From Scilla litardierei (taxonomy: Eukaryota; Streptophyta; Magnoliopsida; Asparagales; Asparagaceae), in NCBI GenBank assembly GCA_030789695.1, contig JAULAV010009184.1, positions 25,283 to 89,282 on the forward strand: a stretch of DNA of 64,000 nucleotides, given 5' to 3'. Under the pieces are notes generated by a model. The model had not been told where the DNA came from and searched no databases. It was given only the letters and a program-made list of their open reading frames with translations. Numbering within the stretch: the stretch's first letter is position 1; each line of letters opens with the position of its first letter. This document shows, in pieces, positions 11,815-59,570 of the stretch. The translations under genes were made by a program, and so were the position numbers.

Positions 11815-14151
11815 TAAGGTCATAACAAATATCATTTAATAAAAAGATCCATAACTTCCCGAAAATGTAGAAAAATAGCCATGAGCTAAGAAAAATCGAC
11901 AAAAATGTCCGTCGGAACCAGGAGATCACCATTTTTAACTGAATAATAAGAGAAGACCAAATTACGTTATAAAAATTAGATCATTTAAAATAAAAATTAT
12001 ATCATACAGAAAATGTAGAAAATAGCTCGGAGCTCAGAAAAATAAAAAAAATTCTGTTGGAAACGGGAGATCGCCAACTTCAACTGAAAAAATAAAAGAA
12101 GAAAAAATTAGGCCAAAAATCATATCATTTAATAAAATGATACATATTTGCCATAAAATGTAGAAAATAGCACCGAGCTTTGAAAAGTCCACACATGTCC
12201 ATTGGAACCAGGAGATCGCAACATACAACTGAAAAATAGAAGACTAAATTAGGCCAAAAAACAATATAATTTAATAAAAAGATTCATATCTTCAAGAAAA
12301 TGTAAAAACCCCAAAGCTAAGAAAATTCCGCAAAAATATCTGTTGGAACCGAGAGATCGACATATTCAACTGAAAAATATGAGAAAACAAAATTAGGCTG
12401 CAAAAATCTTGTCATCTAAGAAAGAGATCCATATCTTTAATAAAATGTAGAAAATAGCCCGGAGCTTAGAAAAATCAGCAAAATATCCGTTAGAACAGGG
12501 AGATCGCCAAATTCAACTGAAAATAAGAGAAGAAAAACTTAGTCTATAAAATCATATAATTTAATAAAATGATTCATATCTTCAATAAACTGTAGAAATA
12601 GTTCCGAGTTTCGAAAAATCCGCAAAAATGGTCGTTGGATCAGGGCGATCGACATCTTCAACTAAAAATCAAAGAAAACAAAATTAGGCAATAAAAATCA
12701 TATCATTTAACTTAAAGATTCATCTCTTACAGAAAATTTAGAAATAGCCCGAAGCTCAGAAAAATCTGCAAAAATGTCAATTGGAACTGGGCGATCGTCA
12801 TCTTCAATGAAAAAATAAGAGAAGACAAAATTAGGCCTAAATATCATATCATTTAATAAAACGATCTATAACTTCACGAAAATAAAGAAAAGTAATACCG
12901 AGCACATAAAAGATGCCAAATTATCCGTTGGAATCAGGAAAGTGCCATCTTCAATAGAAAAAATTAGAGAAGACAAATTAGGCTATAAAAATCATATCAC
13001 TTAATATAAAAATCCATATCTTCCAGAAAATTTAGAAAATAGTCCGGATCTTAGGAAATTCGCACAAATGTTTGGTGGAAATGATAGATCAATATCTTCA
13101 ACTGAAAAAAGAGAAGACTATATTAGGCCAAAAAATCAAATCATTTAATAAAAAGATCCATAATTTCCCGAAAATGTAGGAAAAATAGTCCCAAGCTCAG
13201 AAATATCTGCAAAAATATCTGTTGGAAACAGGAGATTGACATCTTAAAGTGAAAAAAATAAGAGAAAACAAAATTAGGCTAAAGATCATATCATTTAATA
13301 AAAAATCCACATCTTCAATAAAATATAGAAAATAGCACCAAGCTCAGAAAAATCCGCAAAAAAAGTCCGTTGGAACCTGGAGATAGCCATTTTCAACTGA
13401 AAAGTAAGAGAAGACAAAATTAGGCTACCAAAATCATATCATTTAATCTAAAGATATATATCTTACAGAAAATTTAGAAAATAGCCCGGAGCTCAGAAAA
13501 TCTGCAAAAATGTCCGTTTGGAACCGGGAGATCGCCATATTCGTCTGAAAAATATGTGAAGATAAAATTAGGCCAACAAATAAAATTATTTGATAAGAAG
13601 ATCCTTATCTTCTAGAAAATGTAGAAAATAGCCTCAAGATCAAAATAATCGTCAAAAATCTCCGTTGAAACTGTGAGAACGCCATCTTCAACTAAAAAAA
13701 TAAGAGAAGATAACATTAGGCCAAAATATCATATCATTTAATTAAATCATCCATTTCTTTCATATAATGAAGAAAAATAGCCACAGCTGGAAAAAATAAG
13801 TAAAAAAGTCTGCTAGAACAGGTAGATCGCAATATTCAACTAAAAAAATAAGAGAAGAAAAATGTAGGATATAAAAATCATATCATTTAATAAAAAATTC
13901 ATATCTTCCATAAAATGTTGAAAATAGCACCGAGCTTCGAAAAATTCGAAAAAAATTTCGTTGGGACCGGAAGATCGCCATCTTCAACTGAAAAATAAGA
14001 GTAGACAAAATTAGGCCAAAAATAAAATTTAATAAAAATATCCATATCTTCAAGAAAATTTAGAAAATAGCCCCGAGTTCAGAATAATATGCAAAAATAT
14101 CCGTAGGAATTGGGAGATTGCCATCTTCAATTGAAAAATAGGAGATTGACA
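11815..14151. repeat. Tandem array of ~16 copies of a ~146-bp unit
   Basis: The block GAAAATGTAGAAAATAG recurs near 11861, 12009, 12154, 12296, 12441, 12586, 12732, 12878, 13026, 13170, 13319, 13468, 13615, 13762, 13911 and 14053. Spacings are 142-149 bp, mean about 146. Each unit also has CATATCATTTAATAAAA, GTCCGTTGGAACCGGGAGAT, GCCATCTTCAACTGAAAA and AGAAGACAAAATTAGGC. Copies have diverged visibly. No ORF and no similarity to a known gene seen. Confidence 0.9.
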
Positions 14152-14378: not shown

Positions 14379-14970
14379 TGAAGGGTTTTGGCAGACTCTC
14401 AGAGCTCAGATCTGTGCACGTCCTAAGTCAGACGGACCACAGAGGCATAAAGCACAGCGAAAAATTAAAACTATCTAGCTAAACAATTTAGCTAGGCCCA
14501 CAGAGAGCCAGAACCTAGCCCAATCTATGCCAACTTGGGGTGGATCTGACCACCCCAAGAGGGATCAATTCTACTGCGACGAAATTAAATTACATTAAAA
14601 TTACTTAGAGAACATACCCAGAATCTCAACCCTTGGGCGTGCAAGATGTACCGCATCGTCTTCTGACGATCCTCGTAGCCGAACCGTCTTGACCTGATCC
14701 ACCCGAGCCGCCTCGCATCTTCGAACCGATCTGCCCGAGCCGACACCCGTCTCCAAGCCAATCACATGCGGTAGAAGGTTTCACTTGAGTAGACCCGCGT
14801 CTTAGGCGTCTGGATCTAAATCCAAACCCCTTTCGTAGTCTTGCTAGGACTAGTTGGGAGAATAGGAAGAAGAGAGAAAGAATAGTTTAGTCGTAGGTCG
14901 AGCTTGCTCTAAAATTAGGAGCTACTCGATCGAAGACTTGGTGCATTTTTCAACGAAGAAAGTGCACCCC

Positions 14971-14983
14971 TACTTATATAGGG
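14971..14983 (-). promoter_or_regulatory. TATA-like box of the D LTR
   Basis: Minus strand CCTATATAAGTAG, about 300 bp downstream of the GC-palindrome cluster. An equivalent box is in the right LTR near 21438. Confidence 0.55.
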
Positions 14984-15295
14984 AGTCGGCACTTCTCTTT
15001 TCATTGCGAGCAATGTGGGACAAAACAAATAGAAGAAAAATTAATTAAGCTAATTTAGCTTAATTGAAGTTTTAATAAGCCTTTCATAAAGGCCAACTTC
15101 AACGAATTAATTCTCTTTATCCATTAAACTTTGGACACCAAACAAGCTATCAATTCGAAGGGCTTCGAATGGTGAACGCGTAGGAACGAGTGACGACGAA
15201 TTTCGACTTCGTTTGACCCCTCAAACAAATGCCCAAAGATGGCAAAAAAATCAATTTTCGTAGCCGTCATAGAGGGGTTTCAAAAACCCCTACAA

Positions 15296-15490
15296 ATTAA
15301 GTTGCGAGTGTGCCCGCTAGGCTTAGCGGGCGTGCCCGCCTAAGGTAAGGAGGGCGGGCGGTCGGCCCACTGGGCAGCGGGCGCTCGCCTGCTGCAACCC
15401 GCGGGATGCGCCCATTGCTGCAGCGGGCACGTGCCCGCTGCAACCAGTGGACCGTGCCCACTGAGTAGTGGGCATGTGCCCGTTTACCCC
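15296..15490. repeat. GC-rich palindrome cluster in U3 of D
   Basis: An AT-rich LTR contains a sharply GC-rich block of GCGGGC/GCCCGC inverted copies, for example GCGGGCACGTGCCCGC near 15420-15440 and GTGGGCATGTGCCC near 15469. The right LTR has a diverged version (about 21770-21975), and C has one at 29735-29840. Confidence 0.65.
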
Positions 15491-16785
15491 TCATGGATAG
15501 GTCCGTTAGCCTAAGTGGGTCTAACTCACTTTGCCTCAGACTGTTTTTACGTTTCTGGGCTCGTTTGAGCTCCGATTTGGATGCAGTTTAAACCTGTGTT
15601 TAAACCGAGATGATCCCATTACCCAGGTAACCCTTTCCAATGCTTTTGTTCCCACAAATATTGTCGTAAACAATTTACGACATGTTTAATCTTTGTTTGC
15701 ATCGAATGCAACCATGTCCCTAATGCATCTACGACTTAGTCTCATAACTAGCTTGTGAACATCAACTATTCCATTTCATTGAATGAGAATCTCTTATTAA
15801 TCTTCCTATTACTAAGACACGAACGCTACTCGGTGTGAGACCCTACAGCCTGACCTTACTATAGGTTGGGGCTTGAAACCCCTAGACGACAGTCAACACG
15901 AGCAGTAGTTGTCGTCCCTGTTTCAGAATCATCATAATGTGATTGGCCCATTGACAAAAGTATCGTTGGGTTTACATTGGCTGTGTCAGTGATGAATACC
16001 GTTAGCTATAATCCCTTGATCAAGATTGTGTCTCTGTTGGCCTAGGATATGGTTTACTGTCAACCCCATTAGACAACATTGGTCAGTATACGACAGTTTT
16101 TGATGTATTCACGTTGTACATCTTACAACGTACCCCGGCCGAGGATTAACACAAAGACCGTACTGAGCATATGAAACTAACTTCCCTTTAACGGAAGAGA
16201 CGAATCCCATCATAGTCATCTACTCGCCGCGAGAGGTTCAGGTGTAACCCAACCTAAGATCTTTCAGCAGGCCTAGCCTCGAAGCTAGATCTAGGTCTAA
16301 GCGACACTGTTCACTCATAGGTTAGTACAAATGACTTCAGGTCTTAAGGACCAGCTTACCTATCATCACCCTATAGTTATTATAGACAGTTTAGTTAAAT
16401 TTTAACCATATAATAACTCTATGTTGGTCGTTCAGTGAACTCATTCTTCAATGAGCACCTGTGTCTACTTCACCAAGTAGAATGACTATGAGATCATCAT
16501 TACCTTAAGGTAAGACAAAGATACAATGGTCTGTCCGATGTGCCGATATCCAGTTCTCGACACATCTATGACCACGAACCATTTAAGACTTAAGTTTTTA
16601 TTCCGTCACTTACTACTCATAATCGAGATCTTATCTGGATACGTAAGGACCTAACTATAAGTCTGTGGACACTATCTAAGTATATCATTCAAACAAATTC
16701 ATACTTAGGATAATGGATACCATATATCATATTAACAAGACGTACACTTAGGATAAATCGCCTTATGGGCATATATCCTCCTACA

Positions 16786-20845: not shown

Positions 20846-23200
20846 TGAAGGGTTTTGGCAGACCCTCAGAGCTCAGATCTGTGCCCATCCTAAGTCGGAC
20901 GGACCACAGAGGCATAAAGCACAGCGGAAAATTAAAATTATCTAGCTAAACAATTTAGCTAGGCCCTGGGAGAGCCAGAACCTAGCCTGATCTATGCCAA
21001 CTTGGGGTGGATCTTACCACCCCAAGAGGGATCTATTCTACTGCGAAGAAATTAAATTGCACTAAAATTAATTAGAGAACATACCCGGAATCCCAAAACT
21101 GGGGCGAGCAAGATGTACGGCACCATGTTCTGACGATCCTCGTAGCCGAATCGCCTTGACTCGATCCACCCGAGCCGCCTCGCACCTTCGAACCGATCTG
21201 CTCGAGCCGACACCCGTCTCCAAGCCGATCACACGCAGTAGAAGGTTTCACTTGAGTAGACCCGCATCTTAGACGCCTGGATCCGAATCCAAACCTATTT
21301 CGTAGTTTTGCTAGGACTAGTCGTGAGAATAGAAAGAAGAGAGAAAGAATAGTTTAGTCGTAGATCGAGCTTGCTCTAAAATCCGGAGCTACTCGATCGA
21401 AGACTTGGTGCATTTTTCAACGAAGATAGTGCACCCATATTTATATAGGGAGTCGGCACTTCTCTTTTTGTTGCGAGTAATGTGGGACAAAACAAATAGA
21501 AGAGAAATTAATTAAGCTAATTTAGCTTAATTGAAGTTTTAGTAAGCCTTTCATAAAGGCCAACTTCAACAAATTATTCTCTTTATCCATTAAACTTTGG
21601 ACACCAAACAAGCTATCAATTCGAAGGGCTTCGAATGGTGAACGCATAGGAATGAATGGCGACAAATTTCGACTTCGTTTGACCCTTCAAACAATTGCCC
21701 AAAGATGGACAAAAAATCAAGTTTCGTAGCCGTCATAGAGGGGTTTCAAAAAAACCCTACAACTTAAGTTGCGGGCGCGCCCGCTAGGCTTAGCAGGCAT
21801 GCCTACCCAAGGCAATGAGGGCGGGCAGCCGGCCCGCTGGGCAGCGAGCGCGCCCATTGTTGCCAGCAAGCTATACCCATTGAGCAGGGGGTCCTGCGCC
21901 CGCTGCAACCAGCGGGCTGTGCCCGCTGCAACCAGCAGGTCGTGCCCACTGAGTAGCAGGCGTGCGCCCATTTACCCCTCGTGGATGGGCTCATTAGCCC
22001 AAGTGGGTCTAACCCACTTTGCCTCGGACTGTTTTTACGTTTCTGGGCTCATTTGAGCTCCGATCTGGACGCGGTTTGAACCTGTGTTTAGACCGGACGA
22101 TCCCAATAACTAGGTAACCCTTTCCAATGCTTTTGTTCCTACAAATATTGTCGTAACCAATTTACGACACGTTTAATCTTTGTTTGCATCGAATGCAACC
22201 ATGTCCCTATTGCATCTACGACTTAGTCTCACAACTAGCTTGTGAACATCAACTATTCCATTTCACCGAATGAATATCTCTTATTAATCTTCCTATTACT
22301 AAGACACGAACTCTACTCCGTGTGAGACCCTACTGCCTGACCTTACTATAGGTTGGGGCTCGAAACCCCTAGACGACGGTCACCACGAGCAATAGTTGTC
22401 GTCCCTGTTTCAGAATCATCATAACGTGATCGACCCATTGACAAAAGTATCGTTGGGTTTACATTGGCTGTGTCAGTGATGAATACCGTTAGCTATAGTC
22501 CCTTTGTCAAGACTGTGTCTCTGTTGGCCTAGGGTATGTCTTACTATCAATCCCATTAGACATCATTGGTCAGTATACGTCGGCCTTTGATGTATTCATG
22601 TTATACATCTTACAACGCACCCCGGTCGAGGATTAACACAAAGACCGTACTGAGCCTGTGATACTAACTTCCCTTTAACGGAAGAGACGAATCCCATCTT
22701 AGTCATCTACTCGCCTCGAGAGCTTCAGGTGTAACCCAACCTAAGATCTTTCAGCATGCCTAGCCTCGAAGCTAAATCGTAGGTCTAAGCGACACTGTTC
22801 ACTCACAGGTTAGTACAAATGACTTCAGGTCTTAAGGACCAGCTTACCTATCATCACCCTAGAGTTATTATAGACAATTTAGTTAAAGTTTAACCATATA
22901 ATAACTCTATGTTGGTTGTTCAGTGAACTCATTCTTCGATGAGCACCTGTTTCTCGTCTCCGACTTCACCAAGTTGAATGACTATGAGATCATCATTACC
23001 CTAAGGTAAGACGAAGACACAATAGTCTGTCCGATGTGGCGATATCCAGTTCTCGACACATCTATGACCACGAACCGTTTAAGACTTAAGTTTCTATTCG
23101 GTCACTTACTACTCATAATCGAGATCTTATCTGGATACGTAAGGACCTAACTATAAGTATATGGACATTATCTAAGTATATCATTCAAACGAATTCATAC
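20846..23200 (-). repeat. 5' LTR of D, first part
   Basis: Starts TGAAGGGTTTTGGCAGACCC and runs parallel to 14379-16700 until ATTCATAC, where solo LTR E interrupts it. Continues at 25972-26052. Confidence 0.85.
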
Positions 23201-23816
23201 TGTCATGGTCTGTTTTTGATCATACGCTTTACGTGCACGTATTTATTTTAGACCTTGTTTGTATCCGAACCCTATAGTGTGATATACCGTTGTGACCCTC
23301 TCGAAGAGTATTAAATTGTGGAATTATTTTGGAACTTCATTTCACGGGTCATTCTCCCACGATTTGACTTTGTTTGATGAGATGTCGCAATTTTCACTTT
23401 TGTCGTGAGGCCTTTTTATTTTTAGTTTCGTTTCTCGTCGTCGAAATTGTGATCCGTCTTCTTTGTTTTATTTCTCTCATCGGTACGGTCACCCCAGTAT
23501 TTATATTATAATTTTAGCCCTAAGTTTCATTTGATCCGCTTTCACTTTTTGCCCAACCTATAATATCGGTTTAGCCCTAAGTTTCATTTGGTTCTTTCCC
23601 CCAATGATTTATTAATAATAATATCATCCAAGTTTATTTGACTTAGCCACTTTTCCCCACATGGCCGCACAACCTAGGGAGAGAGAGAGAGGGTGAGAGA
23701 TTTTGGTTTTTATAATCTTTAATAACAATTCTCTTCTAACAAATTTTTAAATCAAATAAACCCTAACAACCCACTACACACGTTTCAGCCCATCTCCACG
23801 TGACCTAGCCCATCCC

Positions 23817-36519: not shown

Positions 36520-36896
36520 TTAAGCTATACATAGTTGGATTCTTCTAGAACTTGAATCATGTTGAGCCATGTTTGTTGAACACGTCTCATATTCAATGGG
36601 TCTCCATGAATTTGCTTGAGCCCAGATCTCTTGAATCAGCACATTGAGTACATCTTTGAACCTCTTTGCTCGCGAACGCGTAAATGGTCCAATTGGCACT
36701 TGAACTGGATCTTTTGAAGTTGTTCTATGATTTGCATCATTCCCCTCCTTTTGAAAACGATTTGTCCTCAAATCAGCACCTACATCAAAAGGACTCAAAT
36801 CGGTAACATTAAATGTAGCGCTTACATTGTACTCACCAGGTAGATCTAGCTTGTAAGCATTGTCATTGATGCGCTCTAGCACTTGGAAAGGACCAT
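36520..36896 (-). pseudogene. G integrase C-terminus (left of H)
   Basis: Continuous frame GPFQVLERINDNAYKLDLPG, then VSATFNVTDLSPFDVGADL, NRFQKEGNDANH, VPIGPFTRSRAKRFKDVLN and LIQEIWAQ. This is the standard end of plant Ty3 integrases of this type, after the GPY/F region, with an SRAKR-type tail. The first codons are on the other side of H (59571). Confidence 0.8.
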
Positions 36897-37146
36897 TGAC
36901 GTGCATTTATATTTTATATATTCACGCACGTTTTCTTCGTGATTTTCCGTTGTTTTCCGTTGTTTTGTATCTATTCTTTTGTGGTTTTTAGTATCTTTTC
37001 ACTTTCTTTGTGTTGTTGTGCCGTTGCAGGAGATTGCTAGCACTGGGGACATATAAATCAAATATCATGAGTCCCCGGAGCAACGGGAGGTGCCACGCGC
37101 GATCCTGAGGGCCAAACGTCGAAGAATATCATATTTCAGCCCTCAA

Positions 37147-37462
37147 CCGATCGGGTGGACAGACCCACCCGATCAGTTCATGCACAAGTATCCGACCCGG
37201 ACAGAAGCAGCAGTGAAGAAGAGCCCACCCGATCGGTTCAGCGATCGGGTGGTGGCGACAATGCTATTTGGCTTTTGGAGCTGAATTCCAACCGATCAGA
37301 TGAAAACTCACCCGATCGGTTCATCTGTAGCCAAAGTTCCCCAACTCACGACCCGATGACTCACCCGATCGTTTCAGCGATCGGGTGAAGTATCTGAAGA
37401 ACCGAAGGCCAAGTCGACCGTCGACTCACCCGATCGGTTGATGCTTCAACCGAACGGGTGGT
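37147..37462. repeat. Palindrome array CCGATCGG in U3 of H
   Basis: About eleven copies in both orientations: AACCGATCGGGTGG (37147), CACCCGATCAGTT (37167), CACCCGATCGGTT (37226), CGATCGGGTGG (37242), AACCGATCAGATG (37290), CACCCGATCGGTT (37309), ACCCGATGA (37351), CACCCGATCGTTT (37363), CGATCGGGTG (37379), CACCCGATCGGTTG (37428), CAACCGAACGGGTGG (37447). Core CGATCG is a perfect palindrome; the flanks are AAC or ACC on one side and GGT on the other. Ends about 10 bp before the TATA-like box. Confidence 0.9.
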
Positions 37463-37468
37463 CGTGTA

Positions 37469-37481
37469 TTCTATATAGACC
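37469..37481 (+). promoter_or_regulatory. TATA-like box of the H 5' LTR
   Basis: TTCTATATAGACC; the 3' LTR has TTCTATATATAGACC at 58610. Followed by CTAGGGTTTTT, a typical start of an LTR R region. Confidence 0.65.
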
Positions 37482-38251
37482 TAGGGTTTTTCCCAGAATG
37501 AGATCCCCTTTTCTAAAACTGTCTTTTAGGGATTTTTCGCGGCTGCAAATTTATTCTGTTTTATAAGTTCTCTGATTGTCTTGATACTTGGATATTGTGT
37601 TCTTAATACTATTTTCTCCGTATTTCTATTCCTTGATCTTGATTTTAATGGCTATAATTTGTTGAGTTGCTCTTTTTGCAATGAATTATGAGTAGTTTCC
37701 TAATCTGGGACATTGGTGGAAACCCCTTCGTGGGTTCTCCCTAGAACGACCACAGGATTAGGGATTCGATAGGATATAGGAATTTAGATGGTTACGCGGG
37801 GCGTTTCATTGTCATTGGCGGGAGAAAGACCGCCTCTGACCGTCGGGCCAAGGAGAAATAAAACATGAGTTTGATCCCCTAGTGATCGCTCCGGGACGTA
37901 CACCCAAAGAACGGTTGTAGTTTTACCGCAAGCGCACGGTGTAGCGACGAGCGGGTATCGAACACAGGGAGGACGAATGATCGTGCTTGCTTCTAATCAA
38001 CCTGGCTATTTAAGAATAGAGAGAATTGCCTTGGGCGATCCTGTCACAATCGTCAGACAAATGTGCGAAATATCAAATCAAATAAAGAACGTCTAGGGAA
38101 TGGGGAATCCCCGCTACTCACCGTATTTCATAAATGTGGTTCGTCGGTATCAAAATTGCTAGAATGAGAATTTGGATGAACTAGTTGCAACTAAATATGG
38201 AACCAAGCTCACGCTCTCGCGCTGTTGCCGGTCTATAGCTATCCTAGGGTC

Positions 38252-38542
38252 GGGTCCAATCTCTTGCAAACCCTAGCCTAGGAAAGCTAGCATTAGGATC
38301 AACATCATCGTCCAATTGCGCACCGAGCCTAATCTCTTGCAAACTCGGTCCATAATATAAATTAGGATAGTTCCTACCCGTCCAATCTCTTGCAAACGGG
38401 TATCGGCACGGAATTACAGCCGGAGATCCTGGTATCGGTCCAATCTCTTGCAAACCGTTACTTCGAAAGTCCGACTCCAACCCAATTCGGATTTCTAGGG
38501 CTTCCTATCAAATTGGGATCCAATCTCTTGCAAATCCCAATT
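38252..38542 (-). other. Five hairpins with one conserved loop (3' LTR copy)
   Basis: Forward CCAATCTCTTGCAA occurs five times (one copy has CTAATCTCTTGCAA), each flanked by different self-complementary arms: GGGT/ACCC (38252); ACCGAG/CTCGGT (38322); ACCCGT/ACGGGT (38386); CGGT/ACCG (38436); AATTGGGAT/ATCCCAATT (38511-38542). On the RNA strand the loop is UUGCAAGAGAUUGG. Five unrelated stems of 4-9 bp around one 14-nt loop cannot be explained by simple duplication. Positioned in R-U5, 390-690 nt downstream of the TATA-like box. Confidence 0.85.
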
Positions 38543-39024
38543 GATATGAATACCTAGCTATCCGTAGTAATTCGATCCCAATCTAATCTCTAATTATTGA
38601 TTCTAGCACAATTTCTACCAATTTATCACGAAAACGAAATTGGGCTTGTAGGGTTCATCCCCACGCCCCAAGACGTGGAGACTACTCACAAATCATAGCA
38701 ATAGTACAAAAATAATCAATGAAATAGGCAATGGAATTCATCACAACAATGATATAAACAATAAAAATAGAGTTTTTGGGGAAGAGAGATGCAAACCAAT
38801 GTAGTTCTTCAATTAATCCAACAAAAATCCAAGTTTTTCCTCTTCTCCAATCACAAATAATAAAGCTAAAAAGTAGTCTCAAAAAGCTGCAAAAAATCTA
38901 AGAGATGGCTCTTCAAACTAGGGTAAAAACAGGGCTTAAATAGCCCCAAAAATCGTCCAAAAATCCTGACCAAAACGCCCCTGCACAGCCTGTTTTCCGC
39001 AAATTTCGCTACAGGCAGCACATC

Positions 39025-39406
39025 GCACTCGACCGAGTGACAAAAGTCACTCGGCCGAGTGCAAACCCTGTCATTTTCCAGTAAGTCGGGGGCTTCAAGG
39101 GTCTTCAGTTCGGAGGCGGCTCGGCCGAGTGAGTTGTCGTCACTCGGCCGGTGGCTTCACTGCACTCGGGCGGACGTGGTTTGCCACTCGGCCGAGTGGG
39201 TCTTCTGAAGCTCAGGTGGCCGAAAAACAGAAACTTCGATATTATGGAGGGCTTCGTCTGGGCGCCACTCGGGCGGATGTGGTATCGTCACTCGGCCGAT
39301 GTGGTCTCCGTCGCTCGGCCGAGTACACATGGAAATCGTGTCTGAACGGGTCGGCCGAGCAGTGTCTCGCTGGTCGGCCGAGTGGCTCCTCCACTCGGCC
39401 GAGTGG
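39025..39406. repeat. Palindrome array CTCGGCCGAG in the I LTR
   Basis: Twelve copies, eight with exact TCGGCCGA: near 39028 (imperfect), 39049, 39120, 39141 (imperfect), 39162 (imperfect), 39186, 39268 (imperfect), 39290, 39313, 39351, 39374 and 39393. Best form CACTCGGCCGAGTG, a 14-bp perfect palindrome. The minus-strand TATA-like box of this LTR is about 85 bp beyond the low-coordinate end. Confidence 0.92.
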
Positions 39407-39700
39407 GACACAAAAGATGCCCAATCTGATTGTTTTGGCCTCCTCGTCGCTCCTGCGACGTCCACTCTTCTTCCGCTCCTCTCCAACAGCGAAATATCCC
39501 TCGGGGAGGTCGTCGGTGGCCGTCTAGAGTAAGCGCGTCTCGAGATCACTCCAAATCGCGCCAAATCACCTGAAATGCGACAAAAACAACAAATCGTGAA
39601 AAGCATCGCAATATCGTCGATATATCGTGAAAAACATGATTTGGGCGATCTAAATGGCATGCAAATACACGGAAAAAAGGTGTAAAATATGGAGTGATCA

Positions 39701-41690: not shown

Positions 41691-43896
41691 CTAGGAAGGT
41701 GGTGATGCGCCGTCTCCGTCCTGAGGCGGAGGTGGTGGTGGTGGTGGTGTAGGCTGCTGAGCTGGGGTGGACGTGGAAGTGGAAGCAGGTCTAGTGTGTG
41801 TGGAAGTGTGTGTGGGAACCTGCTGGGTGGGTGGGGGTACGCGCGGAAGACGCTCTAAGATCTGTGTCAGGCAGTAGTGGATCTGAGGGATCAGGTCAAA
41901 GCGTCCAGCCATCGTAGAGACGGTGGAGGACAGGGTCCTAAGGTCACCTCTAAGACCACTCACCGCCAACTCAAGAGCACGTATGCTCTGCAGTACAGTG
42001 TCGGGCGGGGGTGGTGCAGAGGGACGCACCGGTCTAGGCTGCGCAGGGCGGGGCTGGCGTACGCGAGTGGAGTATGTAACGGGCTCAGCAGGGAAGGGGA
42101 CAAAAGGTGTCGTGCCAGCAAATGTGGGCCTGGCCTCAGTGTGAGGCCGGGACACCGGCTGGTGAGAAGTAGAGGCAGCGGCAGCAAAGGAAGCGTGCAA
42201 AAGTGGCAACGAAGTGGCAAGAGAGGTCAGTGGCCCAGAAGTGTGGACAGACGCCACGACGCTCTCGGAGAATACGGCGGCTGTGGAGACAGAGGACTCT
42301 ACCGCTGGGGCAGAACTGTGTGGACCAAAAGGCGCAATCCCAGCGGAGATCATGCTAGCCATGGTCTCCACGACCGCGGCAAACGAGGGCGCTCCACTCT
42401 CGACAAAGGTCGGCGGGCGCTCGGGGAGTGCGGAGCAAAGAGGCTCCACGGACAGAGGGCCAGAGGTGGCAGCGGGAGTGGTGGGGACAGCCTCGGAAGT
42501 GGTGACAGTGGTGGAAGTGGGCTCAGCAAAAGTACTCTCGACACTGACAGAGGTGGGGACAGAAGTGTCAGGAGCAGTGGAAACGTCAGGAACAGGCTGA
42601 GGGGCCACAGGGTCGACGGGGTCGGCAGCAGGCTCGGCAGGGTGTGCAGCAGGATCTGCGGGAGTAGCCTGGGCAGCGTGGGCAGCGTGGGCCTGCTCGG
42701 CCTCCTCGGCCTCGAGCACGTACGCAGCGGGGATGAGGACATCCATCGCTGGGAGCCAGTCAACGTGGGCCGGTGCAATCTGGGTCCGAGCTGGGCTCGG
42801 GAGAATCATGTAGTCGGCACCGAAAGGGCCGTGCAACCAGACCCAGTGACGCTCACCATGCGGACGCAGCATCTTCATCCGGGCCATAACGTCTATCGAC
42901 AAGGAAGTGGGGCCCGGAACGCGTCGCAGGTCGTCAGGTAAGTCCTCGCCGGTCATCATGGTAAGCAGGGTGATCAGACCGCCGCAGCATATCGGTGAGC
43001 GAGCGCCCACCGACACAATGATACGGTCTAAAAACCAAGCCGCAATGTCGATCACGACGGCGGGGACAAGCTCGTGTCCATCCCTAGATAGAGCTCTGGG
43101 ACGTGTCATCGCATAGAGCATGTAGAGCTCTGGCGTAGACATCGTGCCCGGGTCATATCTGGCCAAAAAGGTGGTCGCCATAAGGCGCTGGGCAATACGT
43201 AGGCAGGGGTGGACAATGGCCGAGGCCTTGGCCCTACTAGGGTCAAAGGCGGCGTGGTGGCCTGTGATACGTGCCCAGAAGGCACCGGCGTCGAAAGAAG
43301 GTGGGGGGATGTGGGTAGGGCCGTAACCGCGATCGGCTCCGGGGACAGCGGGCCATGAGAAGAACGCTCTCATCATATCGAGAGTGACCTGGCACTCTCG
43401 ATCCATGAACCTGAATGAGCATCCCTCATCGGTCCGGGCAATCGAACTCAAAACCTCAAGTGTCGGGCGGGGTGAACGTGTCCGCCGACACCTGAAGGAA
43501 GTCGCGCCAACCCACGTTATCGTACAACGTGAGTATCCCCTCTAGTACCCCCAGGCGTCCAAGGTCAGCGAGGTGTGCAAACCTGGAGGGTACGATCGAG
43601 CGCTGGGAGATACGGTCGAAGACGGCGCGGTGTGCGTCGTCTCGAAACGTGATCCCGAGCGGCCCGACCAGTGGAGCCGGTGGTGGTGGCTGTGGATCGG
43701 CAGGGAGAGGCTGTGCGGGCTGTGGGTGCACTGCAGGCTGTGCGGGGTGTGCGGGGCCTGCAGGCTGTGCTGGGTGGACGGCGTGTGTGGGGGAAGGCGG
43801 AGGAGAGTCCTCCACCAAGTGGGAGGGGCCGGGCTCGTCCGACCGCTTCCGCTTAGCGGAAGCTCTCGTCGACCGCGGCCGTGTCCGGGGCGGCAT
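41691..43896 (-). pseudogene. I third ORF: ATHILA ORF1-type protein, one frameshift
   Basis: Likely start ATG at 43896 (MPPRTRPRSTRASAKRKRSD). A basic, NLS-like KRKR segment is followed by a Pro/His/Ala-rich stretch, then FRDDAHRAVFDRIS, LGRLGVLEGILTLYDNVGW and a domain to about 42780 containing RECQVTLDMMRAFFSWPAVP, LRIAQRLMATTFLARYDPG, LYMLYAMTRPRAL and SPICCGGLITLLTMM. These match the third ORF of H (PICCYEMITLI, LFFLYAMS). A long Pro/Ser/Thr/Ala-rich tail follows. A 1-base length change at about 43455-43470 splits the frame (43965-43456 and 43451-41691). In Athila this ORF occupies the envelope position, but I see no signal peptide or membrane segment. Function unknown. Confidence 0.75.
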
Positions 43897-45116: not shown

Positions 45117-47780
45117 TCAATGCGGGATGTTTGGTGCATATGAGATGCACCCGTCAAACTTCCCGGGGAGCGCGCTTGGATTTGGACGTGGCGGCGTAGC
45201 GTTCTCCCTCGGAGGTCTCTTGTCTCGAATAGTGTTGGGGGGAGGCTCCCCCAAGCTAGCATTTGCCCCGGTCAACGGCTTAACCGGCGATGCCGATTTC
45301 CGTACCGGCGGAGCTTTCTTTGGAGACTTTAATTTCGAGAGCTTGCAGAGCTCTCGAATCCTTGCGACATCAGCGTCGCCTTCATCTTCATCAGCGGAGA
45401 AGTCAGGGGAATCATCTTTATTCTCTTCATCTCGGCCTAAATCTGGGCCTTCTTCAAATTCTTCATCAAAAAGGGCGCCAATTGAGTGAGGAATCGTCTC
45501 CTCTATCACCTCATCGAGGAGGTCCATGTAATCAAGCTCCTCGTGGTAAGGCATGTGCTTCATTGCCTTAGGAATGTGGAGCTCCACCTCGATGTTTCCG
45601 ACGTTTAAGGTTAAGGTACCTTCGCGCACGTCGACGATGACTCCGGCGGTGGCGAGGAATGGGCGTCCAAGTATCAATGAGGTGTCTCCCTCCTCCTTAA
45701 TGTCCATGATGACGAAGTCACATGGCAAGCATATTCCACCCGGGACTTGAAGTGGGATGTCTTCGGCAATCCCCACCGGCCTTGTTATCCGGCCATCGGC
45801 TAATTGAATGCGCATGTCGGTGGGTTTCAACTTTGTCCCGGTGTTAAGCTTTAAGAACATGGAGAGGGGCATGAGACTCACACTAGCCCCAAGATCGACC
45901 AATGCCTTTTGAAGAGGCACGCCGCCCAAAGTGCAAGGAATCCGAAAACTCCCCGGATCTTTAAATTTTGCCGGCTCCTTCTCTCTCTTGGTGAACCAAG
46001 AGCCCTCCTCGGCTAGCATGATCTTCTCCTTCCTCTTCCTCCCCGAAATCAAGTCCTTCAAGAATTTAGCATACGTGGGGATCTCCACGATGGCGTCGAG
46101 GAAGGGAATATTGAGGCTAACTCCTCTTAGATACTCGAGGAATTTCGCTAGCCTTTTCTCCATTTTCGCTTTCGCTAGTCTTTGGGGGAATGGGACCGGT
46201 GGCATGAAGCGCCTCTCCTCAATTAATCGCTCCGCCCTAGATTTCTCCTTGTCTTGTGGCTCCTTCTCCTTTTCAATCTCAACTACCGGCTCAACCGGCT
46301 CCAAGCTTTCCTCCACGGCCTCCTCGGTAGGAATCATAGCGGGGGTGGTGTCCTTCCCGCCTCTAGTAGTAACGGCAACTACGGCATTGATGTGGCCCGT
46401 GTTGCCCCGTGGGTTTTGCTCCGGTTGCGCCGGCAATCTTTGAGTGTTCCGATTGAGCAACGCCAATTGCTCCGATATTTGAGCCACTACGGTATTAAGA
46501 GATTCTTGCCCCGCCTTCAAAGTAGCATTCACCTTATTTTGCTCGACCATGAACGCCTCGACTCTAGTTTCGAAGTCGGATCGTTGTGGAGCTTGTGGAG
46601 GGTTTTGATTTTGATTCCTCCACCCTTGGTTGTATCCGGGAGGCCTATATGGTGGAACTTGTTGCTTCGGTTGAAAGTTTTGTTGAGTAGGCCCCCTCGG
46701 TGGATAGTTTTGTTGTTGGGGTGGTGGTGGTCGAGCTTGTTGAGGCGGTGGTTGTGGCGGGTTCAAGGCTCCTTCATTGTTGGCGTAGGAGAATCCCGGA
46801 TGATTTCTTGCGGCCGGATTGGACCAATACCCTTGGTTCCCCGCAACATATTGTACTTGCTCCAAGGATCCTTCTCCTTGCTCTCCTCCCGAGTACATGA
46901 CTTGAGATTGGTCTTGCCAATCACACATTTGGTTGGTCGGTGCGGAGGTGGATGGGCTTCCTTGGGGCTCCGTGATAAATTTCTCCAATCTCTCCACCAC
47001 CTTGTGGAGAGAATCGAATTTGCTCGTGAGCTCCGCTACGGCCTTCGCCTCGTAGATGCTAGTTGGCTTTAAGGAGGATGTGGAGTGTCCTCGCTCATCG
47101 CCCCATTGTTGGTTATTTGAGGCCATCTCCTCAATTAAGGCCGTAGCTTCCTCGGGAGTCTTTGACAAGATTGCACCATTCGCCGCGGCATCAATAATTT
47201 GTTTGGTCCCCGGTTGGAGACTGTTGTAGAAGCTATGAACTAGCTCCCAATCCTCTATACTGTGGTGCGGGCATTGATGCTGCAAATCCTTAAAACGCTC
47301 CCATGCTTCATAGAGCGTCTCCTGTGGTCCTTGCTTGAAGGACATGAGAGCGCTCCGGATCTTCACCGTCTTGGATGGCGGATAAAATTTGTCAATAAAT
47401 GCACTCGCCAGCTCGTCCCAAGTGGTGAAGACACCCTCAGCTTGCGTCCTCAACCAATAGAGTGCCTTGTCCTTTAGCGTAAAGGGGAAGAGACGCAGTC
47501 TGATAGCATCGTTGGAGACCCCCGGCATCTGGAATGTGGCGCACTTCGACAAGAATAGTTGGATGTGGTAGTGGGGGTTCTCATGTGCGTTCCCATGAAA
47601 TGGGTCTTGTTGCATCAAAACCACCAATCCAGTCTTTAGCTCGAAGTTCTTGTCAGCCGCCAACCCCGGCATGGCAATGGACGAGGTGGTAGAAGAAGTC
47701 TTAGGCCGAATCCTATCTCGAATAGAGATGATCCTGGCCATCCTTGCCGCCAATTCTTCAGGAGTTTCCAGGTTGGTCAT
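45117..47780 (-). CDS. I Gag-protease polyprotein (Athila type), intact
   Basis: 887 codons without a stop, start ATG 47780. Residues about 55-235 are an Athila Gag capsid: DPFHGNAHENPHYHIQLFLS, LRLFPFTLKDKALYWL, WDELASAFIDKFYPPSKT, LYEAWERFKDLQHQCPHH. Residues about 320-470 are Gln/Pro/Asn-rich with QQNYPPRGPTQQ; no CCHC knuckle is seen. Residues about 540-600 (PFPQRLAKAKMEKRLAKFLE, YAKFLKDLISGRKR) are the conserved segment before protease. Protease: IPCTLGGVPLQKALVDLGAS, with D at about residue 628 in a DLGA form usual for Athila, then LILGRPFLATAGV near 705. The C-terminal ~180 residues are acidic then proline-rich and end where RT should begin. The long intact frame in a pol-less element suggests recent selection for Gag-protease. 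Confidence 0.92.
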   Translation of the reverse strand: MTNLETPEELAARMARIISIRDRIRPKTSSTTSSIAMPGLAADKNFELKTGLVVLMQQDPFHGNAHENPHYHIQLFLSKCATFQMPGVSNDAIRLRLFPFTLKDKALYWLRTQAEGVFTTWDELASAFIDKFYPPSKTVKIRSALMSFKQGPQETLYEAWERFKDLQHQCPHHSIEDWELVHSFYNSLQPGTKQIIDAAANGAILSKTPEEATALIEEMASNNQQWGDERGHSTSSLKPTSIYEAKAVAELTSKFDSLHKVVERLEKFITEPQGSPSTSAPTNQMCDWQDQSQVMYSGGEQGEGSLEQVQYVAGNQGYWSNPAARNHPGFSYANNEGALNPPQPPPQQARPPPPQQQNYPPRGPTQQNFQPKQQVPPYRPPGYNQGWRNQNQNPPQAPQRSDFETRVEAFMVEQNKVNATLKAGQESLNTVVAQISEQLALLNRNTQRLPAQPEQNPRGNTGHINAVVAVTTRGGKDTTPAMIPTEEAVEESLEPVEPVVEIEKEKEPQDKEKSRAERLIEERRFMPPVPFPQRLAKAKMEKRLAKFLEYLRGVSLNIPFLDAIVEIPTYAKFLKDLISGRKRKEKIMLAEEGSWFTKREKEPAKFKDPGSFRIPCTLGGVPLQKALVDLGASVSLMPLSMFLKLNTGTKLKPTDMRIQLADGRITRPVGIAEDIPLQVPGGICLPCDFVIMDIKEEGDTSLILGRPFLATAGVIVDVREGTLTLNVGNIEVELHIPKAMKHMPYHEELDYMDLLDEVIEETIPHSIGALFDEEFEEGPDLGRDEENKDDSPDFSADEDEGDADVARIRELCKLSKLKSPKKAPPVRKSASPVKPLTGANASLGEPPPNTIRDKRPPRENATPPRPNPSALPGKFDGCISYAPNIPH

Positions 47781-48024: not shown

Positions 48025-48042
48025 TCCCCGGCAACGGCGCCA
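48025..48042 (-). other. Primer-binding site of I (tRNA-Asp type)
   Basis: Forward TCCCCGGCAACGGCGCCA, that is TGGCGCCGTTGCCGGGGA on the minus strand, complementary to the 3' end of plant tRNA-Asp. Six bases from the LTR end. Confidence 0.92.
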
Positions 48043-48417
48043 AAAACTTGATCGCTCCGGGACGTACACCCAAAGAACGGTTGTAGTTTTACCGCAAGCG
48101 CACGGTGTAGCGGCGAGCGGGTATCGAACACAGGGAGGACGAATGACCGTGCTTGCTTCTAATCAACATGGCTATTTAAGAATAGAGAGAATTGCCTTGG
48201 GCGATCCTGTCACAATCGTCAGACAAATGTGCGAAATATCAAATCAAATAAAGAACGTCTAGGGAATGGGGAATCCCCGCTACTCACCGTATTTCATAAA
48301 TGTGGTTCGTCGGTATCAAAATTGCTAGAATGAGAATTTGGATGAACTAGTTGCAACTAAATGTGGAACCAAGCTCACGCTCTCGCGCTGTTGCCGGTCT
48401 ATAGCTATCCTAGGGTC

Positions 48418-48708
48418 GGGTCCAATCTCTTGCAAACCCTAGCCTAGGAAAGCTAGCATTAGGATCAACATCATCGTCCAATTGCGCACCGAGCCCAATC
48501 TCTTGCAAACTCGGTCCACAATCTAAATTAGGATAGTTCCTACCCGTCCAATCTCTTGCAAACGGGTATCGGCACGGAATTGCAGCCGGAGATCCTGGTA
48601 TCGGTCCAATCTCTTGCAAACCGTTACTTCGAAAGTCCGACTCCAACCCAATTCGGATTTCTAGGGCTTCCTATCAAATTGGGATCCAATCTCTTGCAAA
48701 TCCCAATT
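48418..48708 (-). other. Five hairpins with one conserved loop (5' LTR copy)
   Basis: As in the 3' LTR, forward CCAATCTCTTGCAA with five different self-complementary arms; here all five loops have the consensus (GAGCCCAATCTC in the second, where the 3' LTR has GAGCCTAATCTC). Lies in the expected 5' leader of the genomic RNA, downstream of the TATA-like box at 49099. Confidence 0.85.
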
Positions 48709-49098
48709 GATATGAATACCTAGCTATCCGTAGTAATTCGATCCCAATCTAATCTCTAATTATTGATTCTAGCACAATTTCTACCAATTTATCACGAATA
48801 CGAAATTGGGCTTGTAGGGTTCATCCCCACGCCCCAAGACGTGGAGACTACTCACAAATCATAGCAATAGCACAAAAATAATCAATGAAATAGGCAATGG
48901 AATTCATCACAACAATGATATAAACAATAAAAATAGAGTTTTTGGGGAAGAGAGATGCAAACCAATGTAGTTCTTCAATTAATCCAACAAAAATCCAAGT
49001 TTTTCCTCTTCTCCAATCACAAATAATAAAGCTAAAAAGTAGTCTCAAAAAGCTGCAAAAAATCTAAGAGATGGCTCCTCAAACTAGGGTAAAAACAG

Positions 49099-49112
49099 GG
49101 CTTAAATAGCCC
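49099..49112 (-). promoter_or_regulatory. TATA-like box of the I 5' LTR
   Basis: Minus strand GGGCTATTTAAGCC, about 80-90 bp downstream of the palindrome array on that strand. Confidence 0.5.
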
Positions 49113-49190
49113 CAAAAATCGTCCAAAAATCCTGACCAAAACGCCCCTGCACAGCCTGTTTTCCGCAAATTTCGCTACAGGCAGCGCATC

Positions 49191-49575
49191 GCACTTGGCC
49201 GAGTGACAAAAGTCGCTCGGCCGAGTGCAAACCCTGTCATTTTCCAGTAAGTCGGGGGCTTCAAGGGTCTTCAGTTCGGAGACGGCTCGGCCGAGTGAGT
49301 TGTCGTCACTCGGCCGGTGGCTTCACTGCACTCGGGTGGACGTGGTTTGCCACTCGGCCGAGTGGGTCTTCTGAAGCTCAGGTGGCCGAAAAACAGAAAC
49401 TTCGATATTATGGAGGGGCTTCGTCTGGGCGCCACTCGGGCGGACGTGGTATCGTCACTCGGCCGATGTGGTCTCCGTCGCTCGGCCGAGTACACATGGA
49501 AATCGTGTCTGAACGGGTCGGCCGAGCAGTGTCTCGCTGGTCGGCCGAGTGGCTCCTCCACTCGGCCGAGTGGGA
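49191..49575. repeat. Palindrome array CTCGGCCGAG in the I 5' LTR
   Basis: Second LTR copy of the array at 39025-39406, again with eight exact TCGGCCGA cores. Several LTR-LTR differences fall in it (for example CACTCGACCGAGTG against CACTTGGCCGAGTG), all C/T or A/G changes. Confidence 0.92.
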
Positions 49576-49867
49576 CACAAAAGATGCCCAATCTGATTGT
49601 TTTGGCCTCCTCGTCGCTCCTGCGACGTCCACTCTTCTTCCGCTCCTCTCCAACAGCGAAATATCCCTCGGGGAGGTCGTCGGTGGCCGTCTAGAGTAAG
49701 CGCGTCTCGAGATCACTCCAAATCGCGCCAAATCACCTGAAATGCGACAAAAACAACAAATCGTGAAAAGCATCGCAATATCGTCGATATATCGTGAAAA
49801 ACATGATTTGGGCGATCTAAATGGCATGCAAATACACGGAAAAAAGGTGTAAAATATGGAGTGATCA

Positions 49868-50415
49868 CCTAGCCACAGCTCATACCCCTAGCGTAGACAT
49901 TGAATCCTAACGCGTGGAAATGGCATGATGAAATGTCGGGAGCAATCGTTGCGAGCTTAGTGCTCTCGGAGTCGGTCGGTGTTAATGGTCATGGGAATGC
50001 CCACCGTCCGAAGCCGGGTAGACCTGGCGTATCATCCTGTGCATCGAACGGAATATCAGGCCTATGGGACGCTAGGTATCACTTTTAGAGGCAACGTCTC
50101 ACCACTAAACCCTAGAATCCAATCGTATCCCTATCCGTCGGTCGTAACAGAGAGAGCACACGATAGGGTGGAAACCAAAGTCCTGGGTTCCTTCTTATAT
50201 CTTACATCTTTAGTAGTTTCATTTCGTGACAAACCACCGAGCGATAGGGCTAGCTCACCCACCGGGTGATCCGGATCTTGTCTGATAACAAGTACATCAC
50301 ATGCCTCCCCGTGTTCGACCCCCAAGCCACATTACAACACCGTGCGCTTGCAGTTATAATATTTAAATCGGGTATCCCTGTTCCGACTACACATTGCAAA
50401 ATCTAGGGGACGTCA
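49868..50415 (+). repeat. 5' LTR of H, second part
   Basis: Resumes with CCTAGCCACAGCTCA and ends GGGGACGTCA, parallel to 59016-59565. Confidence 0.9.
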
Positions 50416-50422
50416 AGCTTTA

Positions 50423-58025: not shown

Positions 58026-58038
58026 TCTTGGGGGATTT
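57996..58038 (+). other. Conserved inverted repeat and PPT of H
   Basis: CTCGTCTTCCTCGAGGACGA (57996) then CTTGGGGGATTT ending at 58038, next to the LTR. I has the same two blocks in the same order. Confidence 0.88.
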
Positions 58039-59565
58039 TGACGTGCGTTTATATTTTATATATTCATGCACATCTTATTCGTGATTTTTCGTTGTTTTCC
58101 ATTGTTTTGTATCTATTCTTTTGTGGTTTTTAGTATCTTTTCACTTCTTTATGTTGTTGTGCCGTTGCAGGAGATTGCCAATGCTGGGGATATATAAATC
58201 AAATATCATGAGTCCCCGAAGCAACGGAAGGTGCCACGCGCGATCCTGAGGGCCAAACGTCGAAGAATATCATATTGCAGCCCTCAACCGATCCGGTGGA
58301 CAGACCCACCCGATCGGTTCGTGCATGAGTATACGACCCGGACAGAAGCAGCAGTGAAGAAGAGCCCACCCAATCGGTTCAGCGATCGAGTGGTGGCGAT
58401 AGTGCTCTCTGTCTTTTGGAGCTGAATTCCAACCGATCAGGTGAAAACTCACCCGATCGGTTCATCTGTAGCCAAAGTTCCCCAACTCACAACCCGATGA
58501 CTCACTCGATCGGTTCAGCGATCGGGTGAAGCATCTGAAGAACCAAAGGCCAAGTCAACCGTCGACTCACCAGATCAATTGATGCTTCAACCGATCGGGT
58601 GGTCGTGTATTCTATATATAGACCTAGGTTTTTTCCCAGAACGAGATCCCCTTTTCTAAAACTGTCTTTTAGGGATTTTTGGCAGCTGCGAATTTATTCT
58701 GTTTTATAAGTTCTCGGATTGTCTTGATACTTGGATATTGTGTTCTACTATTCTCTCCGTATTTCTATTGCTTGATCTTGATTTTAATGGCCATAATTTG
58801 TTGTGTTGCTCCTTTTGCAATGAATTGTGAGTAGTTACCTAATTTGGGACATTAGTGGAAACCCCTTCTTGGGTTCTCCCTAGAACGACCACAGGATTAG
58901 GGATTCGATAGGATATAGTAATTTAGATGGTTACACGGGGCGTTTCATTGTCATTGGCGGGAGAAAGACCTCCTCTGACCGTCGGGCCAAGGGGAAATAA
59001 AACAGGAGTTTGATCCCCTAGCCACAGCTCACACCTCTAACGTAGACATTGAATTCTAGCGCGTGAGAACGACATGATGAAATGTCGGGAGCAATCGTTG
59101 CGAGCTTAGTGCTCCCGAAGTTGGTCGGTGTTAATGGTCATGGGAATGCCCACCATCCAAAGCCGGGTAGACCTGGCGTATCATCCTAGGCATCGACCGG
59201 AATATCGGGCCTATGGGATGCTAGGTATCACTTTTAGAGGCAACGTCTCACCACTAAACCCTAGAATCCAATCGTATCCCTATCCGTCGGTCGTAACAGA
59301 GAGAGCACACGATAGGGTGGAAACCAAAGTCCTGGGTTCCTTCTTATATCTTACAACTTTAGTAGTTTCATTTCGTGACAAACCACCGAGCGATAGGGCT
59401 AGCTCACCCACCGGGTGATCCGGATCCTGTCTGATAACAAGTACATCACATGCCTCCCTATGTTCGACCCCCAAGCCACACTACAATACCATGCACTTGC
59501 GGTTATAAATATTTAAATCTGGTATCCCCGTTCCGACTACACATTGCAAAATCTAGGGGACGTCA
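58039..59565 (+). repeat. 3' LTR of H
   Basis: 1,527 bp from TGACGTGCG to GGGGACGTCA. Differs from the 5' LTR by frequent transitions and a few small indels (for example 37033-37075 against 58172-58214). Confidence 0.92.
58285..58605. repeat. Palindrome array CCGATCGG in the H 3' LTR
   Basis: 3' LTR copy of 37147-37462. Several cores differ between the two LTRs by single transitions (for example CACCCGATCAGTT against CACCCGATCGGTT), followed by TATA-like TTCTATATATAGACC at 58610. Confidence 0.9.
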
Positions 59566-59570
59566 ACCAT

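Follow-up and report, generated by a model that had tools for sequence, protein, structure and literature searches.

The window analyzed here is a 64,000-nucleotide (nt) stretch of the Scilla litardierei genome (assembly GCA_030789695.1, contig JAULAV010009184.1, positions 25,283 to 89,282), and our subject is an array of hairpins in the predicted leader RNA of a minus-strand long terminal repeat (LTR) retrotransposon that it contains, element I. The two LTRs of element I are 98.96% identical, with 18 mismatches over 1819 aligned positions, and the target-site duplication CCTAG is found at both ends. The LTRs and the duplication, an ATHILA open reading frame (ORF), and a Gag of the Athila type together place element I in the Athila lineage (Ty3/gypsy). 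The primer binding site (PBS) was read from the sequence, and we take it to be of the tRNA-Asp type. The features are as follows.

48049..49867, minus strand: 5′ LTR of element I, 1819 bp, aligned to 37883-39700
37883..39700, minus strand: 3′ LTR of element I, 1818 bp, aligned to the 5′ LTR
49102..49108, minus strand: TATTTAA, a TATA-like box 409 nt before the hairpin 1 apex
48654..48730, minus strand: hairpin 1, apex TTGCAAGAGATTGG at 48699-48686
48577..48649, minus strand: hairpin 2, apex at 48619-48606
48541..48568, minus strand: hairpin 3, apex at 48561-48548
48480..48523, minus strand: hairpin 4, apex at 48508-48495, CAA/UUG in the window and CAC/GUG in most sampled copies
48402..48455, minus strand: hairpin 5, apex at 48435-48422
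48369..48397, minus strand: divergent hairpin 6, GCGC-GAGA-GCGU at 48388-48377 on an imperfect lower stem
38236..38564, minus strand: 3′ LTR copy of hairpins 1 to 5 (offset, 10166), with one change in the hairpin 4 apex (38329)
48025..48042, minus strand: PBS, TGGCGCCGTTGCCGGGGA
45117..47780, minus strand: Gag-protease ORF of 887 amino acids without a CCHC zinc knuckle (Retrotrans_gag, E value of 1.8e-18; Asp_protease_2, E value of 1.2e-5)
41691..43451, minus strand: ATHILA ORF (PF03078, E value of 2.9e-8)

A first-pass annotation had described five leader hairpins, each with the same invariant 14-nt loop on a different stem, and the five motif copies do lie in both LTRs where it placed them. 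On the plus strand, the 14-mer CCAATCTCTTGCAA starts at 48422, 48495, 48548, 48606, and 48686 in the 5′ LTR (5/5 exact) and at 38256, 38329, 38382, 38440, and 38520 in the 3′ LTR (4/5 exact, with one mismatch at 38329). Read in the sense direction, five copies of TTGCAAGAGATTGG follow one another from 48699 to 48422 with start-to-start spacings of 80, 58, 53, and 73 nt, and complementary arms flank each copy. All of the stems that had been named are present, but they extend further outward, and hairpin 4 has a T·G pair separating its stem from the 14-mer. A further hairpin capped by a GAGA tetraloop (48388-48377) follows the five and brings the total to six.

The 331-nt array leader folds at −128.7 kcal/mol, compared to −94.6 kcal/mol (standard deviation, 4.5) for 100 dinucleotide shuffles, none of which folded as well (z score of −7.58). 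Among all 120 possible ways of pairing the five left arms with the five right arms, the true pairing ranks best. The mean duplex energy of an arm is −9.1 kcal/mol with its own partner and −2.9 kcal/mol with the other partners, and the stems are thus orthogonal. The hairpin 6 region (48330-48430) folded alone reached a z score of only −1.6. No Rfam 15 family matched over the array at its gathering score or at an E value of 1, and the only match nearby, at 12.6 bits, is on the other strand. We considered whether the loop has a target elsewhere in the window and rejected this: at ≤3 mismatches the 14-mer has 16 matches there, 10 of them the loops themselves and 6 scattered, while 8.8 are expected by chance.

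The array belongs to an abundant family. In the assembly (3.68 Gb, 7266 contigs), the exact 14-mer occurs 84,400 + 83,374 = 167,774 times, compared to 1 + 4 times for a reversed control, and the PBS motif occurs 25,939 + 25,833 times at ≤2 mismatches. Among 70 loci anchored on the PBS rather than on the hairpins, 48 carry at least two motif copies ≤900 nt upstream and 22 do not; extrapolation from the 48/70 gives an estimate, and no more than that, of ~35,000 array-bearing elements in the genome. The 22 loci without the motif fall into seven groups, and in the 10 of them that were examined no 10-mer occurs three or more times in the leader part; their repeats lie in the outer LTR. We aligned 68 rows (66 loci and the two window LTRs, after removal of 32 loci with duplicate arrays), with pairwise identities of 71 to 100%. 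All sampled loci come from a single contig, within its first 10 Mb; the exact motif was used to pick 30 of the places, and entry of a row required at least two motif matches with ≤2 mismatches each. Hairpin 6 keeps its GAGA in 64 of the 68 rows, with no compensatory change in its upper stem. All comparisons are within one plant species. Outside this genome, sequence searches found no relative, and a pattern search matched 42 stretches with no relative among them. A further 24 loci were tried as relatives and rejected: neither the Gag query nor any of its 120 homologues gave a match in them, and they resemble chance hits in GC-rich sequence; 14 loci with prokaryote titles were left out.

The structure was predicted from the window sequence alone and then scored in the other rows. 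Over the five hairpins, 94.6% of cells in all rows pair, compared to 23 to 49% with partners slid by one to four columns. The 33 rows with <80% identity to the window retain pairing in 3202 of 3414 cells (93.8%, versus 25 to 51% slid). In these 33 rows the majority base has changed on both sides of 17 pairs, 15 of which still pair (binomial P of 2e-5 against 6/16 and of 0.001 against one half; changes on the same branch are not independent, and these values are guides only). A further 16 pairs have changed on one side, and 14 of them still pair, 12 as G·U. The 17 both-side and 16 one-side changes, against 6 to 9 and 36 to 38, respectively, for slid partners, indicate that changes arise in partner pairs. 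Matched stem variants include ACCCGT/ACGGGT and ATTCGT/ACGAAT in hairpin 3 and ATCGGT/ACCGAT and TTTGGT/ACCAAA in hairpin 2. Across the 66 nonwindow rows, doubly changed cells of the five hairpins comprise 600 paired and 82 broken; over all rows 602 of 705 are paired, compared to a mean of 0.42 and a maximum of 0.78 for random re-pairing of the arms.

Which strand acts can be judged from wobble pairs. At the predicted pairs, G·U occurs in 880 cells and A·C in 136 (976:385, 737:775, 1185:393, and 906:727 in the four slid controls), and this excess of G·U indicates that the strand that acts is the sense RNA. It bears equally on a reading at the DNA level, in which the repeats form cruciforms or protein-binding palindromes or are a neutral by-product of repeat expansion. 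The complementary strand does fold well (−104.6 kcal/mol; z score of −6.3), and U3 carries a repeated 10-bp palindrome; however, the sense-strand G·U pairs, which include 12 of the 14 one-side changes that kept pairing, are mismatches in the other strand, and an apex pair changes from A-U to C-G in concert. We consider the DNA-level reading highly improbable. On these comparisons of natural copies, pairing has almost certainly been selected in the sense-strand RNA, as the first-pass annotation had argued from its different stems; pairing is held across subfamilies by both-side changes and G·U pairs.

The loop itself requires a different description. In the minimum-energy fold of the window, U1 pairs with G14, U2 and G3 are bulged, and C4-A5-A6 pairs with U11-U12-G13 to enclose GAGA, a tetraloop of the GNRA type. 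The 14-mer therefore need not be the open loop that had been supposed; CAA(GAGA)UUG is an alternative fold in which a GNRA tetraloop caps three base pairs. Nor is it invariant. The variant TTGCACGAGAGTGG, found in hairpin 4 of most sampled copies and in hairpin 5 of some, replaces A6-U11 with C6-G11 as a matched pair. Over the hairpins of the rows, positions 6 and 11 are A-U in 268 cases, C-G in 63, U·G in 4, G·U in 2, and A·C in 1. Genome-wide, with the rest of the 14-mer unchanged, A-U occurs 167,774 times, C-G 32,129 times, C·U 247 times, and A·G 304 times (reversed-sequence controls: 5, 6, 1, and 3, respectively). An alternative register with a C4-G11 pair and a wobble-paired apex could account for the change at U11 but not for the joint change at A6. 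By parsimony, hairpin 5 underwent three switches from A-U to C-G and one reversion, and hairpin 4 a single switch, counts that transfer between hairpins or copies could inflate. The same theme recurs in the leader of another family, as CCAC-GAGA-GUGG in loci L097 and L122 (CCAU in L109). This leader forms long hairpins and a strong fold (z score of about −4 in L097) with a single GAGA hairpin.

The first-pass annotation had offered two roles for the array, kissing-loop dimerization and protein binding, and the paired apex separates them. UUGCAA is self-complementary and is retained in most sampled apices, the alternative register leaves part of the palindrome unpaired, and retroviral dimerization initiation sites are palindromes in apical loops, as described in the available part of PMC5874298. 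In the mini-stem register, however, CAA is paired, and the exposed GAGA is not self-complementary. The 32,129 copies that read UUGCAC...GUG have lost the palindrome and retained the mini-stem, which disfavors dimerization through UUGCAA. An exposed and conserved self-complementary loop was not found, and we rejected the kissing loop as the principal explanation, leaving it very little probability. The protein-binding role fares better: the same apex on differing stems is what would be expected if a protein reads the apex, and from the sequence comparisons it is probable that the apex is a protein site.

The array is positioned where such a site would lie in genomic RNA. In array loci the PBS is 505 to 853 nt downstream of the first detected hairpin, and a TATA-like motif lies upstream of the array in 20/20 loci (at a distance of 381 to 488 nt from the first detected hairpin in 17 loci and of 498 to 597 nt in three), although the motif is short and some of the 20 may be chance occurrences. 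A place between the TATA-like box and the PBS puts the array in R or U5 of the expected leader. The array might act structurally in reverse transcription or in strand transfer, for instance as a compact R/U5 fold that affects strong-stop synthesis or jumping. Its position within the LTR would suit this, but such a role does not need a single repeated apex, and we regard it as quite improbable. The array could instead govern translation of the long leader, for example through shunting or slowed scanning of ribosomes. The fold is very stable, ~1.3 kb separates the expected start from the gag ATG, and upstream ATGs occur at 48907, 48862, 48824, and other positions. A ribosome shunt requires a stable stem and not several identical tips, however, and selection on the apex would be left without an explanation; a translational role is accordingly improbable. 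Between the array and the PBS, the minus-strand interval 48289-48208 resembles a short intron, with GGTGAGT and TGACAG ~80 nt apart, the acceptor having been read by eye.

The zinc knuckle is the means by which Gag normally selects genomic RNA, and to our knowledge little is known about how plant LTR retrotransposons select RNA for packaging. In the available text of PMC2577118, Athila/Tat Gag proteins usually have one CCHC array, with few exceptions. No CCHC is present in the 887 amino acids of the window Gag, in which the knuckle site (CX2CX3-4HX4C in homologues) reads CDWQDQSQ. Since the accessible part of PMC2577118 describes the knuckle as usual, its absence is compatible with Athila membership. 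We found 176 related proteins, and the named ones among the best 120 of the 176 are nearly all from plants; the strict pattern CX2CX4HX4C is present in 23 of these 120 and a loose pattern in 70, so absence is not rare in deposited sequences. When 20 array loci were searched by tblastn, nine aligned at the knuckle site, and the eight that were readable all lack the knuckle (8/8), the other being out of frame. The forward frames downstream of the PBS yielded no CCHC in any of these 20 loci. Nonarray loci L095, L111, L099, L100, L102, and L161, which represent four families, do contain CCHC; Gag homology was confirmed in L095, L102, and L161, not in L099, which leaves three families with a recognized Gag. 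No CCHC was found in the Gag region of L109 and L159, one family with a strongly folded leader that lacks a repeated apex. None was found in L160 and L162 either, but no Gag was recognized there.

We propose that the five hairpins and the divergent sixth would present one apex, in which a GAGA tetraloop closes a stem of three base pairs above a two-nt UG bulge and a U·G pair, each on a private stem. A protein would read the apex, and the stems would merely present it. Differences among the stems would keep each arm with its own partner and might perhaps also limit deletion by template switching, while repetition of the apex would allow multivalent binding. A Gag that lacks a zinc knuckle makes Gag the obvious client for packaging, and the most likely reader would be the element's own Gag, with the array as its packaging signal; this is the weakest step of the proposal. 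We tentatively favor the full reading, in which the array is a set of protein-docking hairpins in the genomic RNA leader and most likely a packaging signal read by the knuckle-less Gag, while granting it somewhat less than an even chance; the packaging role is one that we infer from position and protein sequence. That a lineage of plant endogenous retrovirus-like elements, its Gag having lost the knuckle, shifted genome recognition to a multivalent GNRA-capped array on orthogonal stems is possible but doubtful.

The main alternative is that a host factor for export or translation reads the apices, although we know of no host factor that reads such an apex. In the available part of PMC4377836, the constitutive transport element (CTE) follows the same design logic, with identical recognition elements repeated. 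In element I, a splice-donor-like GGTGAGT lies downstream of the array. The CTE sites, however, consist of internal loops within a 3′ untranslated region, while those described here form the tips of hairpins close to the expected 5′ end. A host reader is unlikely, yet it merits more weight than the other alternatives. Either reader would be of consequence: Gag, if it is the reader, would select its genome without a knuckle, and a host protein would be a host factor needed by a very successful element. In both cases the natural copies single out a precise RNA element to the base-pair level and offer a simple binding test.

Several observations weigh against this account. The first-pass annotation had proposed covariation beyond phylogenetic expectation as a test; in an R-scape-like null, with changes re-dealt along a FastTree tree, none of the 105,570 column pairs was significant (best E values of 0.45 and 5.3). 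The two top-ranked column pairs were the apex pairs of hairpins 5 (first) and 4 (second), and these same two passed when the test was limited to the 116 predicted pairs (E values of 0.0005 and 0.006, respectively); the other 114 failed individually. There are few deep clades among the copies, and many stem changes therefore occurred once, on single branches. When the partners are displaced by −1, cells changed on both sides are paired no less often than those at the predicted pairs (263/313 versus 602/705 in all rows; 207/237 versus 451/528 in the 33 divergent rows, with 6/6 majority pairs), although that slide has far fewer such cells, pairs at 16 of 36 one-sided differences, and pairs in 51% of all cells. 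Sampling partly by motif inflates loop conservation. Changes per column on the tree were 0.94 for the 14-mers (a figure biased low by the motif-based sampling), 2.01 for the arms, 2.48 for the spacers, and 2.31 outside.

The energies of the apex and the distribution of knuckles add to these reservations. The two apical registers are nearly equal, with mean mini-stem probabilities of 0.31 to 0.54. The mini-stem appears in the minimum-energy fold of hairpins 1 to 5 in 53, 58, 42, 14, and 50 rows, respectively (n = 68; n = 67 for hairpin 4). All five mini-stems form in 7 of the 68 rows, three or four in 44, two in 15, one in 1, and none in 1. Local folding of hairpin 4 gave the mini-stem in 15 or 19 of 67 rows depending on the flank, the registers being close in energy. 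As for Gag, the leader of a second family that lacks the knuckle (L097/L109/L122) is structured but carries no such array. With that family counted as knuckle-less, Fisher's test of the association between knuckle and array gave P values of 0.067 (four knuckle families) and 0.10 (three); the link involves one array family and is suggestive, not a correlation. Overall, the stems are secure, and the apex is supported by covariation more than by energies.

Leader hairpins that share a tetraloop are known already. We compared the array with the leaders of gammaretroviruses, with satellite tobacco necrosis virus 1 (STNV-1), with Ty1, with the barley BARE elements, which are of the copia type, and with other Athila-lineage elements. 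We know of no gammaretroviral leader in which a bulged three-base-pair apex is repeated on different stems. Such leaders do have adjacent hairpins with one GACG tetraloop and a role in packaging (stem-loops SL-C and SL-D of murine leukemia virus [MLV] and two in RD-114), as reported in the available parts of PMC516450 and PMC5874298. They differ in that the tetraloop is GACG and not GNRA and the hairpins number two, not five or six; moreover, gammaretroviral Gag (class I in the accessible text of PMC2577118) has a knuckle, while the Gag of the array family does not. STNV-1 has five putative 5′ packaging hairpins with AxxA loops and the coat protein as proposed reader, but its loop motif is short and degenerate, it is not a retroelement, and the same source, PMC6475782, argues in its available part against AxxA acting in vivo.

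Among LTR retrotransposons, Ty1 has a packaging region that has been proposed to lie close to the 5′ end, and its Gag shows low homology to retroviral Gag; Ty1 RNA has a long-range pseudoknot and palindromes, and the available part of PMC8396678 mentions no repeated apex. Conserved dimerization and packaging signals are mentioned for BARE, with no hairpin array mentioned in the accessible text of PMC3735527. Diaspora and other elements belong to the same lineage as element I, and their Gag normally carries a CX2CX4HX4C knuckle (available parts of PMC1142308 and PMC2577118); the words hairpin, stem, and untranslated are absent from the text on Diaspora (PMC1142308). Among the open-license papers that our literature searches listed, neither a GNRA-capped array of five or six in an LTR retrotransposon nor an array in an Athila leader was found.

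Element I sits inside an LTR of a second element, element II, and the two parts of that LTR are at 36896-37882 and 49868-50416; the other LTR of element II is at 58038-59566. The element II leader folds moderately better than shuffles (z score of −2.6; 20 shuffles). The sequence downstream of its PBS yielded no CCHC and only fragmentary open frames, so element II was left out of the knuckle tally either way. In the U3 of element I (49110-49867, minus strand), the 10-bp palindrome CTCGGCCGAG occurs at six sites, one with a mismatch. Other families repeat a short motif of their own: ACCCGATCGGTT in element II (58038-58640), CTCGACCGAG in L097, and ACCCGCCTGT/ACAGGCGGGT in L102, the outer LTR of which folds at a z score of −16 (15 shuffles). 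A U3 motif particular to each family may represent a second conserved feature. Antisense to the element I gag ORF, positions 47257-47362 of the plus strand match Rfam snoR71, a plant C/D small nucleolar RNA, at 45 bits (gathering score, 40). Self-comparison of the window also revealed a satellite-like tandem array at 11824-14151, with units of ~145 to 150 bp that are 75 to 78% alike, and a direct repeat of ~2.35 kb (14379-16705 and 20846-23201) whose copies are 91% identical.
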